Notes under the pieces: model-generated | The model's input: the letters and a program-made list of their open reading frames with translations, nothing else | Told to the model about the DNA's origin: nothing | The model's database searches: none | Part shown: one piece after another, positions 2,913-38,468 of the stretch | Layout of the letters: the number at the start of each line of letters is the position of its first letter | How positions within the stretch are numbered: position 1 is the stretch's first letter | Origin: Treponema sp. | GTDB taxonomy: Bacteria > Spirochaetota > Spirochaetia > Treponematales > Breznakiellaceae | Direction of reading: 5' to 3' | Assembly: GCA_031286095.1 (NCBI GenBank) | Contig: JAITUY010000105.1 | Coordinates: 1 to 41,901 of the forward strand | DNA: 41,901 nucleotides | Translations under genes and position numbers: made by a program

Positions 2913-2925
2913 GTAAGAAAAAAGA

Positions 2926-3060
2926 CCTCTCGCAGAGGCGCGGAGGCGTAAAGTTGTTGTTTGCAAAATTACCGTTATACTTTCAATATCTTGGTTTTAC
3001 GATTGTATATCATATATTAAAAGGAGTTACCGGAGTAAGGCTCTGCGCCTCTGCGAGAGA
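2926..3060. repeat. Family A palindromic repeat, copy A2
   Basis: cctctcgcagaggcgcggaggcgtaaag ... gctctgcgcctctgcgagag. Confidence 0.85.
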
Positions 3061-3079
3061 CTTTTCCGAAAAAAGTTTT

Positions 3080-4252
3080 ATGCGTTTTGTCCTTGTTTCG
3101 ATTATCTGTTTTCTCTTACTGCCTTCTTGTGTTAAGTGTGAAATGGTTAACCGCTCAAAAAACGAGGTTAACGACACGAAAAATGGGGATAGTATCGATA
3201 TAATCGACCCTATAAGGCTTCGCGCGGAAGAAATTGCTGAAGGTCTTGACGACAGGCTTCTTTCCGCGCAGGTTCTTATCAGCGGAATAGAGGGTAAGGG
3301 CAAATTGAATGATAATGTCGTAGCCTTGCTGACTGAATTTCCTGCGGGCGGGATTATGCTTTTCAGGTACAATCTTGACGACGATAACGATTCAATCCGC
3401 GCCTTGCTTTCGCAAACTTCTGCGCTTGTAACAGGCGGGGCTGGTATTCCGCCGTTTATAGCGGTGGATCATGAGGGAGGAACTGTAAACCGTTTCAGGC
3501 GCGGAACTGCCGGTCTGCCTTCCGCAGAGTCTTATTGGGAACTTGCGCTCACACAGGACAGACAGACGGCTCTTGAAAAATTAGAGAGCGACAGTTTCAG
3601 GGCGGGACGCGAATTAAAAGATTTGGGGATCAATTTAAATTTCGCTCCTGTAGCCGAATATTTAAACGATGCAAACCGTATTTTTTTACAAAGCCGTTCC
3701 TACGGCCCCGATTCTCTTTTTACTGCGGACGCCGCGTCTGCTTTTATAAGCGGAATGGAACGGGCGGGGGTTTTATGCGTCATAAAACATTTTCCCGGCA
3801 GTGCGGGAAACGATCCGCACTACTCCGCTTCGGTGCTGGGCGCGGACAAAGGCGCGCTTGATAACATAGTCTACCCTTTTACGTTTCTTATCTCAAGAAA
3901 CCGCGCAAGGGCGGTTATGGCCGCGCATACTGCCGTTCCGGCGCTAGATACGAAAATAGCGAGTCTGTCGCAGGTTGTTATGAAAGACTGGTTAAGGGAC
4001 GAAATTGGTTTTAATGGGATATTGATTGCCGACGACTTCAGCATGGCGTCTGCGGGCGGACAAACTCCTGAATCCTCTGCGATTATGTCCGTCATAGCGG
4101 GGGCGGACATGGTGCTTGTCTGGCCGAAGGATTTAAGGCGTACGCACAGCGCTTTTACCGCCGCCATTCAGGATGGACGGCTTTCACGCGAAAGAATGAG
4201 ATCAGCCGCGAAGCGGATAATTTATGAGAAAATTTTACTTGGCTTATTGTAA
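3080..4252 (+). CDS. Glycoside hydrolase family 3, beta-N-acetylhexosaminidase-like lipoprotein
   Basis: VDHEGGTVNRF, KHFPGSAGNDPH, ADDFSMAS; lipobox-like LLPSC after MRFVLVSIICF. The start at 3080 is preferred over 2954 because the upstream part lies in repeat A2. Confidence 0.82.
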   Translation: MRFVLVSIICFLLLPSCVKCEMVNRSKNEVNDTKNGDSIDIIDPIRLRAEEIAEGLDDRLLSAQVLISGIEGKGKLNDNVVALLTEFPAGGIMLFRYNLDDDNDSIRALLSQTSALVTGGAGIPPFIAVDHEGGTVNRFRRGTAGLPSAESYWELALTQDRQTALEKLESDSFRAGRELKDLGINLNFAPVAEYLNDANRIFLQSRSYGPDSLFTADAASAFISGMERAGVLCVIKHFPGSAGNDPHYSASVLGADKGALDNIVYPFTFLISRNRARAVMAAHTAVPALDTKIASLSQVVMKDWLRDEIGFNGILIADDFSMASAGGQTPESSAIMSVIAGADMVLVWPKDLRRTHSAFTAAIQDGRLSRERMRSAAKRIIYEKILLGLL

Positions 4253-15147: not shown

Positions 15148-15350
15148 TGTATCCCCCTTGACATCTCAAACTAACTTATATAGAATAGGCGTCCTTGGAA
15201 TAAATTTACCCCTCTTATCAAGAATAAGGTAAATTTATAATATTTGCAAGTTTTTTTTACTGTTTTTTTTAAAAAAATTAACCAATTACTAATTAGAGTC
15301 TTATAATGTGGGCACATTATGACTCGTACCCTAATGTACGCGACTATTAG

Positions 15351-15753
15351 TCTGTAACAGCTAAATGTTCACAATAACTTATTACCAGACATTTTCACGC
15401 AGAGGTCGCGGAGACGCAGAGGATCAAGGGTGATTAGCTAACTTGTATCACTTTCATGTTGTTTTTCATTATAAAATAGAGTTGTTCGTAAACTTCAGTT
15501 TCTGAACAACTTCATATAAAAAACGCGGTTTTGTCGAACTTTCGGACTAAAGTCCGCGTTCGCAGGCTTATAGCCTAAAAAACAGCAAGACTGGTCAGCG
15601 TAGCTGACATGAGACAACCAACCGGGTTATCTTACAAGTCAATAATAAAAAAGCATAGCTGGAAACGCGCAATTAGGTAATAAAGCGCAGTTCTCCGCGC
15701 CTTTGCGACCTCTGCGTGATAAAAAATAGAGTGTAGTTTTAGTTGTTACAGAC
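15351..15753. repeat. Family B palindromic repeat, copy B1
   Basis: tctgtaacagctaaatg ... gtagttttagttgttacaga; internal cgcagaggtcgcggagacgcagagg / ctccgcgcctttgcgacctctgcgtga. Confidence 0.8.
15479..15640. repeat. Family D element D2 nested in B1
   Basis: gttgttcgtaaacttcagtttctgaacaac ... gagacaaccaaccgggttatcttacaagtc. Confidence 0.7.
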
Positions 15754-15833
15754 TACTACCTTAAAACGTATTTTCGTAGCAGGCGGGAAAATACAAGGTC
15801 TGTCCGCAAAGTAACCGACTTTGTAGACAGATA

Positions 15834-16649
15834 CTAATTAGTACCCCGGCGCGGAAAAATCGATATAAAAATAAGGGCGATTAACGCGGTAATATACGGA
15901 AAAGCGAGCAAAAAATCGGCGGGAAGGGACATGAACCCCTGCGAATAATTGGAAAAAGCCTCGGCAAGGCTGAAAATAAAAGCGGCAAAAAGGACGCCCA
16001 ATGGGTTTCGTCCCCCAAGGAAGATTACTGCGAGCGCAATCCAGCCTTTTCCGGCGGACATTCCCGGCACGAATGCGCCAAGGTTCAAACTTAAAAATGA
16101 GCCGCCTATTCCGCATAAAAAGCCGGAAATCAGCAAAGCTGTGGTTTGGTACGCCTGCGGTCTTATCCCAAGAGAGACAAGAGCGCAGACGTCTTTTTCG
16201 CAGGCGCGAAGACGGTAGCCAAAGGGCGTTTTGTAGATCGCAAGCCAAGATACCGCAAGCGTAATTATTCCGGCGATAACATACCATTTTTGAAGTCCGG
16301 TTACGTTTTCGGACACAACCACCCCTCTTGTACCGAATAATTTATCGGAAAAAACTACGCACAAACCGCTTGAAAAAAGGTTTACTGCAAGCGCGGAAAT
16401 AAAAAGATTTGCGCGTAATTTGAATACTGCAAATGCGTGCAGAGCCGAAAGCGCCGTCCCCGTGATTATTCCTGCCGTTATTGCAGAGAAAACGCTTCCC
16501 GTAGCGTAATAGACTGCAAGAGACGAAAAAGCGCCCGCAAGAAGCAGTCCCTCAAGCGCGATGTTGAGGGTTCCGGCAAGAACTGGAAATAGTCCGCCTA
16601 CCGAAGCAAACAGCAGAGGAATCATCATTGTAACGGCGCTTTTAAACAT
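15834..16649 (-). CDS. ABC transporter permease (BMP-type, nucleoside/riboflavin-like)
   Basis: LPVLAGTLNIALEGLLLAGAF, VIFLGGRNPLGVLFAAFIF; start MFKSAVTMMIPLLFA preferred over 16688. Confidence 0.85.
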   Translation of the reverse strand: MFKSAVTMMIPLLFASVGGLFPVLAGTLNIALEGLLLAGAFSSLAVYYATGSVFSAITAGIITGTALSALHAFAVFKLRANLFISALAVNLFSSGLCVVFSDKLFGTRGVVVSENVTGLQKWYVIAGIITLAVSWLAIYKTPFGYRLRACEKDVCALVSLGIRPQAYQTTALLISGFLCGIGGSFLSLNLGAFVPGMSAGKGWIALAVIFLGGRNPLGVLFAAFIFSLAEAFSNYSQGFMSLPADFLLAFPYITALIALIFISIFPRRGTN

Positions 16650-17730
16650 CAGTCTTTCCCCTCTTTGAATAAATGTTGCGTATAACAAGGCTTGTGGAAA
16701 TAAAGAAAATTACAGCCTGCGCAATAGAGGCGACTTCGTAAGTAAGACCCGTATTCTGCATGGCCGTTCTCGCGCCGGTTCCGATCCATGCGAAGAAAAG
16801 CGCGGAAGGGATTACGGCAGAAGGATTAAAACCTGAAATTAAAGCTACGGCAAGCCCGTTCCAGCCAAGTCCCGCGGAAAATTCTTTTATTACCGCGTGA
16901 TATGTCCCCATTACCGCCATGCTTCCCGCAAGCCCGTAAAAGCCGGCGCTTACCGCCATTGACGCGACTGTTATCAGTTTTGTGTTGATTCCGCCGTAAC
17001 GCGCAAATAATTCGTTGCTTCCGGTCATACGTATTTCATAACCAGGTTTTGTCCTTTTAAGAAAAAATTGGGCTATTATTACCATTCCTACTGCGATAAA
17101 AAAACCTGCGCTTAAAACAGATGGTTTTAAGATAAGCGGCAAGCGTAAATTTTCCGCTATTTTGCGCGTTGACTGTAGCGACGACTGTGGATCGTTAAAC
17201 GGGACGCATACAAGGTAATTGACAACGGGAATGACCGCGCAAGACAGTAAAAAAGAAGTGATAAGTTCGCTTGTATTCCACATCGCCTTGCAAAAGCCGC
17301 TGAACACTCCAAGCAACCCGGCGCAGACAAACCCGGAAGTTACGGCTAGGATTCCAGTAATTACGCCCGACTGCCCTATGCCGTACTTTGAAAGAAGGAG
17401 CGAAATGGCAGTTGTGCAAAAAGCGCCCGAATATATTTGCCCCTCGCCGCCAAGGTTAAAATTTCCGGCTTTCATCGCAATAGTTACGCCTAACGCCCCT
17501 ATTACAAGCGGAACTGAGGCGTTCAGCATATTGCCGAAACTGAACAAGTTGCTGAAAGGACCTATAAAGAAAAAATAAAGCGTTCTTACAGGAGTGTCGC
17601 TAAGAATAAAAACAAGTAATATTACCGCCAAAAGCGAAATAACAGGGATATATATTCCAGCGTAAACAGGCAGTGGGCGAAAAACTTGCGTTTGAGGCGG
17701 TCCGCCTGTTAATTTTGAGCGTTCCTTCAT
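16642..17730 (-). CDS. ABC transporter permease (BMP-type)
   Basis: AMKAGNFNLGGEGQIYSGAF, GLGWNGLAVALISGFNP. Confidence 0.87.
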   Translation of the reverse strand: MKERSKLTGGPPQTQVFRPLPVYAGIYIPVISLLAVILLVFILSDTPVRTLYFFFIGPFSNLFSFGNMLNASVPLVIGALGVTIAMKAGNFNLGGEGQIYSGAFCTTAISLLLSKYGIGQSGVITGILAVTSGFVCAGLLGVFSGFCKAMWNTSELITSFLLSCAVIPVVNYLVCVPFNDPQSSLQSTRKIAENLRLPLILKPSVLSAGFFIAVGMVIIAQFFLKRTKPGYEIRMTGSNELFARYGGINTKLITVASMAVSAGFYGLAGSMAVMGTYHAVIKEFSAGLGWNGLAVALISGFNPSAVIPSALFFAWIGTGARTAMQNTGLTYEVASIAQAVIFFISTSLVIRNIYSKRGKTDV

Positions 17731-22275: not shown

Positions 22276-22411
22276 TTACACTCCTTTGGTTCAATTATCG
22301 GCGTTTAAAACCGGTAATTTAAGGGATTATTTGACATAAAGAAGTATCTTTCGAGAGATACGGAAGAGATATCTCTCACAGAGGTGCGTAAGAAGATTTA
22401 TTGAAGAAACA

Positions 22412-22552
22412 CCTCTCGCAGAGGCGCGGAGGCGCAAAGTTGTTGTTTGTAAAATTTTCATTATACTTTTCAAGATTTTTGTATTAGTTAATATATCAAG
22501 TATGAAGAGGAGCAATCGGACTAGGACTCCGTGTCTCTGCGCCTCTGCGAGA
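22412..22552. repeat. Family A palindromic repeat, copy A5
   Basis: cctctcgcagaggcgcggaggcgcaaag ... gtctctgcgcctctgcgaga. Confidence 0.85.
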
Positions 22553-22676
22553 TATCTTTTCCGTATTATCATTCCCCGCGCACTTTCGTCAATAATGCAT
22601 TTCGTGTTGTTTCATGACAAATTCCAACAGCGACAATTTATCCGCCATCGGTTGTTTGTTTGTTTTCCTATAAAAA

Positions 22677-24751: not shown

Positions 24752-25315
24752 ATGATTAAAGCCGTAGACGTCGTAAAAGGCACTTGCCTGCTTCAAAAGG
24801 GACAGCCGTATCTGGTGGTTGAAAGGGAATTGCACAATCCCGGAAAGGGAACTTCTGTAGCCAGAATTAAAATGAAAAGTATAAAGGACGGGTCCGTTTT
24901 AAGCCTTACAATCCCCACTCAGCAGGAAGTTGAAGACGCGCAGGTCGATATTCACGCCTGCCAGTACCAATATGCGGATCAGGACAATTATCACTTTATG
25001 GATAACGAAAGTTTTGAACAGTACGAAGTTCCCATCACGGACGCTCCAGACAAAAAATTCTATCTTAAAGACGGCGACGTTTACGATCTTACAATTTGGG
25101 AAGGCAGGGTAATAGACATAAAAATTCCGTACAAGGTTGTTTTTACAGTCGCGCAAAGCGAAAATTATGTGAAAGGCGACACGGTTTCAGGCGCGACAAA
25201 ACCAATCATTACGGAAACGGGCTTAACGGTAAGGGTTCCGCTTTTTATCAAACAGGACGAAAAGATACTCGTGAATACCGAGACTAACGAATATGTCGAA
25301 AGAGTCAACAATTAG
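24752..25315 (+). CDS. efp: Elongation factor P
   Basis: 187 aa; NPGKGTSVARIKMK loop, SYVKGDTVSGATKPI-like ENYVKGDTVSGATKPI, GLTVRVPLFIKQDEKILVNTETNEYVERV. Confidence 0.95.
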   Translation: MIKAVDVVKGTCLLQKGQPYLVVERELHNPGKGTSVARIKMKSIKDGSVLSLTIPTQQEVEDAQVDIHACQYQYADQDNYHFMDNESFEQYEVPITDAPDKKFYLKDGDVYDLTIWEGRVIDIKIPYKVVFTVAQSENYVKGDTVSGATKPIITETGLTVRVPLFIKQDEKILVNTETNEYVERVNN

Positions 25316-25357
25316 TGTCTGTCCATAAAGCCGGTTACTTTATAGACACACGCTAAT
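25311..25357. repeat. Small family C hairpin element overlapping the efp stop codon
   Basis: attagtgtctgtccataaagccggttactttatagacacacgctaat. Confidence 0.6.
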
Positions 25358-25387
25358 TAAAGCCCAAATTTTATAAAGGAGCGTTTT

Positions 25388-28858: not shown

Positions 28859-29040
28859 GAATCGGGAAGAATTTTTATTATTTCGGAGTGTCAAAAAAGT
28901 AATGGACTTGTTCTAACCAACGGGGTTATTGAACAGGTCTATTGTTATTCTCTTATATTACGTTAATTTGTAAGTTATATTTCTTCTGTTCGTATTTGTC
29001 GTTAGGTTTGCGGTAAAGAATTATTTTCGGACACTCCTAG

Positions 29041-29399
29041 TACTCTGTAACAGCTAAATGTTCACAATAACTATTACCAAACCTCCTCACGCAAAGGGCG
29101 CGGAGACGCAGAGGATCAAGGGTGATTAGCTAGAGTCTATCTATAATGTGGACACATTATAGATAGACTACCTTAAAAACGTATTTTCGTAGCCTTTAGG
29201 CGAGAAAATACAAGGTCTGTCCGCAAAGTAACCGACTTTGTGGACAGACACTAGCTAACTTGTATCCCTTTCATGTTGTTTTTCATTATAAATAATAAAA
29301 AAGCATAGCGGGAAACGCGCAATTAGGTAACAAAGCGCATTTCTCCGCGCCTTTGCGTGATAAAAAACAGAGTGTAGTTTTAGCTTGTTACAGAGTACA
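29041..29399. repeat. Family B palindromic repeat, copy B2, containing a nested C element
   Basis: tactctgtaacagctaaatg ... ttttagcttgttacagagta. Confidence 0.8.
29133..29251. repeat. Family C element nested in B2, flanked by TAGCTA direct repeats
   Basis: TAGCTA (29127..29132) | gagtctatctataatgtgga...gtctgtccgcaaagtaaccgactttgtggacagacac | TAGCTA (29252..29257). Confidence 0.75.
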
Positions 29400-29425
29400 G
29401 TGTATGGGTGAATATTGATAAAAGC

Positions 29426-35820: not shown

Positions 35821-36002
35821 TATTAACCTCCAACAGGGAATGGGGAATCTCAATTTCCTTTTTCCCTTTACATTTTTTTATATAACCGTTACTTCTACTG
35901 TAATTATGGGAAAAGTTTGCTTGATTGCTAGTATCTTTTGTCTTGAAAAAGTCACCTGTTGGGGTCATTGACGCCTTATTCCAAGTCGTTTGCACGACAT
36001 AA

Positions 36003-36230
36003 AACATAACTTTGTTTTTTATCACGCAAAGGCGCGGAGAAATGCGCTTTGTTACCTAATTGCGCGTTTTCCTCTATGCTTTTTTATTATTTTATATTGA
36101 AAAACAACATGAAAGGGATACAAGTTCGCTAATCACCATTGATCCTCTGCGCCTCCGCGACCTCTGCGACCTCTGCGTGAGAATTTTTGGTAATAATTCA
36201 TTATGAACATTTAGCTGTTACAGAGTTCTA
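36003..36230. repeat. Family B repeat, copy B3
   Basis: ttttatcacgcaaaggcgcggagaaatgcgc ... cctctgcgtgagaatttttggtaataattcattatgaacatttagctgttacagag. Confidence 0.8.
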
Positions 36231-36472
36231 GTACTATGACAGCTAAAACTTTTTTTCATTTTTTATCACGCTGAGGCCGCAGAGGCGCGGAGAAATGCGC
36301 TTTGTTACCTAATTGCGCGTTTCCCTCTATGCTTTTTTATTATTTTCTATTGAAAAATAACATGAAAGGGATACAAGTTCGCTAATCACCCTTGATCCTC
36401 TGCGCCTCCGCGACCTCTGCGTGAGAATTTTTGGTAATAATTCATTGTGAACATTTAGCTGTTACAGAGTTC
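36231..36472. repeat. Family B repeat, copy B4, tandem with B3
   Basis: tagtactatgacagctaaaac ... gaacatttagctgttacagag. Confidence 0.8.
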
Positions 36473-36655
36473 TAGTACTATGACAGCTAAAACTTTATTT
36501 CATTTTTATCACGCAGAGGCGCGGAGAAATGCGCTTTGTTACCTAATTGCGCGTTTCCCTCTATGCTTTTTTATTATTTTATATTGAACAAGTCTTGCAT
36601 TTTTTCGGACAAAAGCCTTACAAAAATACAATTATAAGAAATTTTTTAAACAACT
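36473..36655. repeat. Family B repeat B5 (left half), interrupted by D4
   Basis: tagtactatgacagctaaaac...cttttttattattttatattgaacaagtcttgcattttttcgg. Confidence 0.7.
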
Positions 36656-37945: not shown

Positions 37946-38172
37946 TATAGCCGTTTACGCGGTTTATAGCAATAAAAAGAAAAATCTCTCGCAGGGGCGG
38001 ATACTCAGAAGGAGCTCTCGCAGAGGCGCAAAGGCGCAGAGTTGTTGTTTCTTATATTTTCTTTACCTTCAAGATTTTCGTATTAGGATAATAATTGTAT
38101 ATTAATAGGAACTTTCGTACGAAAACTTTGCGCCTTTGCGCCTCTGCGAGAGGTATTTTCCGAAACATCTCC
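37815..38172. repeat. Tandem duplication copy 1: 5' end of LuxR-type gene, its upstream region and repeat A7
   Basis: gagttgccgagtttttgcgcg...ttttccgaaacatctcc; abuts the second copy directly. Confidence 0.85.
37985..38152. repeat. Family A repeat, copy A7
   Basis: gctctcgcagaggcgcaaaggcgcagag ... ctttgcgcctttgcgcctctgcgagag. Confidence 0.85.
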
Positions 38173-38468
38173 GAGTTGCCGAGTTCTTGCGCAGTTGATA
38201 TTCTGCTATCAGCTAAAAGTTCCATTTTCATTATAGCCGTTTATACGGTTTATAGCAATAAAAAGAAAAATCTCTCGCAGGGGCGGATACTCAGAAGGCG
38301 CTCTCGCAGAGGCGCGGAGGCGCAAAGGCGCAGAGTTGTTGTTTCTTATATTTTCTTTACCTTCAAGATTTTCGTATTAGGATAATATGTTGTATATTAT
38401 ATAGGAACTTTCGTACGAAAACTTTGCGCCTTTGCGCCTCTGCGAGAGGTATTTTCCGAAACATCTCC
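38173..38468. repeat. Tandem duplication copy 2, with an internal deletion
   Basis: gagttgccgagttcttgcgcag...ttttccgaaacatctcc; lacks ~74 bp of the coding part. Confidence 0.85.
38271..38449. repeat. Family A repeat, copy A8
   Basis: gctctcgcagaggcgcggaggcgcaaaggcgcagag ... ctttgcgcctttgcgcctctgcgagag. Confidence 0.85.

Follow-up and report, generated by a model that had tools for sequence, protein, structure and literature searches.

Does a repeat that is split by a second repeat, itself split by a third, record successive insertions, or did the whole block arrive as one unit? This question is raised by positions 15290-15840 of contig JAITUY010000105.1 of an uncultured Treponema relative (assembly GCA_031286095.1), analyzed here over its full 41,901 nucleotides (the window; contig C58 of a genome of 2.77 Mb and 270 contigs). 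At this locus, a hairpin-rich copy of about 127 bp of a repeat family that we call C (C1) is split by a 242-bp copy of family B (B1), and B1 by a 163-bp copy of family D. The stack very probably represents three unrelated miniature non-autonomous DNA transposons, of the type of the miniature inverted-repeat transposable elements (MITEs), nested by successive insertions and moved in trans. It is composed as follows:

15290..15295, no strand: left target duplication of C1, TAATTA, read from the sequence and the family rule TANNTA
15296..15347, plus strand: left part of C1, with the hairpin GAGTCTTATAATG..CATTATGACTC followed by an extra stem CGTACC..GTACG; its last bases are the left target copy of B1, CTAT (15344-15347)
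15348..15755, plus strand: B1, with ends TAGTCTGTAACAGCTAAA and TTTTAGTTGTTACAGACTA and D inside
15475..15477, no strand: left 3-bp duplication of D, AAT
15478..15640, plus strand: D (AGAGTTGTTCG...CAAGTC), in the middle of B1
15641..15643, no strand: right 3-bp duplication of D, AAT
15756..15759, no strand: right target duplication of B1, CTAC (left copy CTAT)
15756..15834, plus strand: right part of C1, with the middle stem and the terminal hairpin GTCTGTCCGCAAAGTAACCGACTTTGTAGACAGATAC
15835..15840, no strand: right target duplication of C1, TAATTA, overlapping the stop codon of the minus-strand open reading frame (ORF) 15834..16688

Each insertion carries the duplication of its own family

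All three families left their target duplications at the stack: TAATTA/TAATTA for C1, CTAT/CTAC for B1 and AAT/AAT for D. A longer, 10-bp flanking repeat (TACTAATTAG) had been proposed earlier and was rejected because the rule of the C family is six bases: the true duplication is TAATTA, and the additional TAC and G match by chance, belonging to the flanking DNA at one end and to the element at the other. The rule itself follows from the identical flanks tallied for C copies (TAATTA 28, TAAATA 9, TAGATA 6, TAACTA 5, TATTTA 4, TATATA 3, and others), which define a six-base duplication of the form TANNTA.

Uninterrupted copies supplied the empty sites. C1 is of the subtype in which an additional CGTACC...GTACG stem precedes the CTACC junction, and copies with this stem read GCGACTACCTTAAAA without a break; about 24 other C copies of the same genome run uninterrupted across the point at which C1 is split. 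The empty site for D is given by uninterrupted B, which reads AAAATAATAAAAAAGC, and the genome holds B copies without D as well as B copies without C. These comparisons bear out the initial annotation, which had placed a complete B1 between the left (15296-15347) and right (15756-15834) parts of a C element and had recognized, with D at 15478-15640 inside B1 (15348-15755), three levels of nesting within about 550 bp.

Could C1 and B1, with D, be one composite element moving as a unit? The whole C1-B1-D block is enclosed by a single TAATTA pair, which speaks for such a unit. However, the genome contains no second copy of the block, the best other matches spanning the B/D portion only; the uninterrupted C copies lack B, and B copies outside C have CTAG duplications of their own. 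The composite C+B unit, raised beforehand as the alternative, is refuted by the contiguity of the two parts of C in most other copies, and movement of the block as a whole is highly improbable. A misassembly joining unrelated repeat copies is suggested by the state of the assembly, which has 270 contigs and is often broken within copies of D and C. It seems hardly credible here, as the duplication proper to the family stands at the correct base of each junction, and chance joins are not expected to yield three.

Nesting was surveyed in the loci that were fetched (L-numbers) rather than in every copy in the genome. In these, D occupies two neighboring ANT sites of B, and at one of the two it recurs in several copies with different D subtypes. 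This site is an AATAAT run at the center of B, where D lies at nearly one place in B1 (15475-15643) and in contigs C210, C97, C23 and C71; the nearby ATT site holds D in contigs C161 and C112. The recurrence at the AATAAT run might mean that B with D is a mobile composite subfamily, D having arrived inside B1 instead of inserting on the spot. This is unlikely, because the D copies at the run are of different subtypes and have private substitutions of their own and because the second site is used as well, as would be expected if D had entered an ANT-rich hot spot more than once. The innermost position of D also agrees with its low divergence (median identity to the consensus of 97.9% for D, 89.7% for B and 89.0% for C, among fetched copies biased to the best matches).

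B and C inserted into each other

A second locus of the window shows the opposite order:

29037..29401, plus strand: B2 (element 29041-29397), with the left flank CTAG, the right flank CAGT, which is degenerate, and C2 inside
29127..29257, plus strand: C2 (29133-29251) inside B2, with TAGCTA duplications at 29127-29132 and 29252-29257

As annotated at the outset, C lies inside B at 29127: C2 stands between two TAGCTA copies within B2, and uninterrupted B reads GATTAGCTAACTTG at this site. B-in-C and C-in-B are separate insertions, each with its own target duplication, and therefore the periods of activity of the two families overlapped, as had been supposed. The site used by C2 is also occupied in contig C145 (L016), where the C copy belongs to the other subtype; this is most simply a separate event. 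A further B site carries C in contig C112 (L030), and D lies inside C in contigs C152 and C49. B inside C was seen once, in the 15290-15840 stack. An automatic scan recovered D-in-B and one C-in-B; it missed C1 and C2 because their pieces lay beyond its thresholds, and these two were read by eye.

A model of successive transposition

C, B and D are short, dispersed in many copies, and have terminal inverted repeats and a target duplication, as do MITEs; each is too short to encode a transposase. Since the duplications are of fixed length and the ends inverted, we infer that the elements were moved by trans-acting DDE-type transposases. C was the first to insert, at TAATTA beside the stop codon of the neighboring gene. 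B subsequently entered C at CTAC, and D landed in the AATAAT run midway along B. Each element would be moved by a transposase recognizing its ends and making a staggered cut characteristic of the family: C would require a cut of 6 bp at TANNTA, B one of 4 bp at CTAN and D one of 3 bp at ANT. IS200/IS605-derived palindromic elements, which insert without target duplication, were ruled out by the duplications of C and B and by ANT in most readable D copies.

Several points weigh against nesting by successive insertion. The CTAT/CTAC duplication of B1 has one mismatch, and the right flank of B2 is degenerate. The assembly is fragmented, many contigs starting or ending inside D or C, and the D and C repeats are probably the cause of this fragmentation. 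No close strain offers a precise empty or half-filled site, the closest ortholog having 77% identity. Finally, no end pair matching C, B or D was found among about 30 PF01609 (DDE_Tnp_1) loci from the genome and the genus, other transposase families not having been searched. The target rules of IS5-family subgroups, which we take to resemble CTAG/CTAN (B) and ANT (D), give a lead only, the PF01609 loci examined having no matching ends.

Properties of the three families

The C family (119-137 bp; about 29 long matches dispersed in the genome) has the consensus GAGTCTGTCTATAATGTGGACACATTATAGACAGACTACCTTAAAAAACGTATTTTCGTAGCCTTTAGGCGAGAAAATACAAGGTCTGTCCGCAAAGTAACCGACTTTGTGGACAGACAC, with a middle stem between two strong hairpins, imperfect terminal inverted repeats GAGTCTGTC/GACAGACAC, and ends that read TANNTA-GWGTCTGTC with the target. 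The folding z-score of C2 is -11.4; an Rfam scan of the window returned one tRNA and nothing else. With crude ORF calling, and with 16 copies scored inside ORFs, 7 of 43 C insertions lay within about 10 bp of an ORF stop, as compared to 9 of 396 random TANNTA sites, a weak enrichment that is suggestive only. In the window, C duplications overlap the stop codons of neighboring ORFs at 15834-15840 and 25309-25318.

B measures about 242 bp and gave several dozen matches in the genome. Its ends are like TACTCTGTAACAGCTAAA, with terminal inverted repeats TACTCTGTAACAG/CTGTTACAGAGTA, and read CTAG-TACTCTGTAAC with the target; the copies duplicate CTAG or CTAN (4 bp). Head-to-tail B copies with a short spacer (TACTAGAA or similar) were seen at 35990-36655 of the window and, in the same genome (G000), in contigs C37, C207, C59 and C169. 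Transposase 3′ ends closing in AGTGTGAACACGC are present at G000:C221:1-225, C164:1-225 and C239:1-112, with PF01609 in C221 and C164; in contig C239, a B copy directly adjoins such an end.

D (163-179 bp) has the ends AGAGTTGTTCG and CGAACAAGTCC, which form imperfect terminal inverted repeats. Read by eye, 10 of the 14 D copies with both flanks readable had a 3-bp ANT duplication, usually AAT. The D core pattern gave 203 matches in the genome, a count that contig ends may inflate, as against none for the reversed control. Another dispersed repeat family, with CTCTCGCAGAGGCGC-type ends, occurs in the window at 249-414, 2918-3083, 22404-22569 and 38019-38468.

Solo C hairpins

At six places in the fetched loci, a single C hairpin of 38-39 bp lies between perfect 6-bp duplications, as in TATATA-GTGTCTGTCCACAAAGTCGGTTACTTTGTGGACAGACAC-TATATA. 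These and further solo copies are:

L173:1054-1104, L214:2599-2649, L140:6675-6725, L144:1954-2004, L128:3937-3987, L089:1493-1542: the six solo C hairpins
G000:C66:4250-4287 (L282), G000:C164:11884-11920 (L283): solo C hairpins of the genome under study, likewise between perfect 6-bp duplications
25309..25359 of the window, minus strand: solo right-type C hairpin with flanks TAATTA/TAATTG (one mismatch), directly at the end of ORF 24752..25315

Both the left-type and the right-type hairpin of C occur as solos with TANNTA duplications of their own. A strict pattern for perfect right-type solos matched 1 of 40 genomes of the genus, so solos of exactly that sequence are uncommon there. Among the fetched loci that were scanned for it, no element of 0.3-6 kb had C ends between identical TANNTA flanks, and the only C lengths off the normal range were the 38-39-bp solos and two D-interrupted copies. 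In two other genomes (G010 and G014; L289, L290, L297, L298), left-type hairpins continue into ACTACCTT(A), or its reverse, followed by an exact or nearly exact copy of the opposite flank, which suggests another type of short C derivative, about 45 bp long.

A tentative reading, to which we give rather low probability, is that the mobile unit of C is the single 38-39-bp hairpin and that full-length C may be two such hairpins now moving together; if true, few mobile DNA units so far described would be as small as this hairpin. Alternatively, the solo hairpins could be deletion remnants of full-length C after its insertion.

Distribution of the families and of the stack

C was found in 30 of the 60 genomes searched among relatives, including that under study, nearly all of the same genus, and at a stricter cut-off in 3 of 297 genomes across the class. 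Matches to the C-hairpin pattern are mainly records of metagenome-assembled genomes (MAGs) named 'Treponema sp.' and 'Spirochaetaceae bacterium'; judging from isolate codes and record style, the C-bearing MAGs, including this one, are probably of termite-gut origin. One C copy lies on a contig labeled Desulfovibrio sp. (JAISZT010000090.1; L109:2835-2869), whose sample code is the same as that of a Treponema MAG, and reflects either a binning error or a transfer. Long matches to B were restricted to the genome under study, with short ones in other congeners.

The DNA adjoining the stack was matched in 33 of 40 genus genomes, again counting its own. In the twelve other genus genomes whose adjoining sequence was inspected, neither C, B nor D was seen at the orthologous site, and this check within the genus found no half-filled state. 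The closest ortholog, in genome G005, is among these twelve. The stack is therefore lineage-specific. Beside the ortholog of ORF 15834..16688, G005 (contig C112, L222) carries a different palindromic insertion (AGTTAACAGTTAACAGTG...CACTGTTAACTGTTCACTG).

Comparison with known systems

The stack gives a readable order of insertion and precise target rules for three repeat families of uncultured Treponema genomes, at least two of which were active in overlapping periods. It helps to explain frequent assembly breaks and provides clean definitions of ends and targets for finding the driving transposases. No existing name was found for C, B or D, nor, in the open-licence literature, any paper on such elements in termite-gut Treponema.

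The two terminal hairpins of C are also found singly, which parallels the doublets and singlets of REP sequences. REPINs are paired hairpins with solo derivatives, for which deletion between paired units is one proposed origin, and their movement is proposed to depend on RAYT (Y1) transposases (PMC3116915). C differs from them in that its copies lie between 6-bp target duplications. Short length, dispersal, terminal inverted repeats and target duplications are features that C, B and D share with prokaryotic MITEs (reviewed in PMC10969869). In arrangement, the stack resembles the BOX, RUP and SPRITE repeats of Streptococcus pneumoniae, which insert into one another as here; BOX and RUP also have terminal inverted repeats and target duplications (PMC3049150). 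Their sequences are unrelated to ours, and the partner insertion sequences proposed in that system had no counterpart among the PF01609 loci. The nested stack does not overturn current understanding: it is ordinary MITE nesting, of the kind already documented in pneumococcus, where small repeats were reported to insert into one another (PMC3049150).
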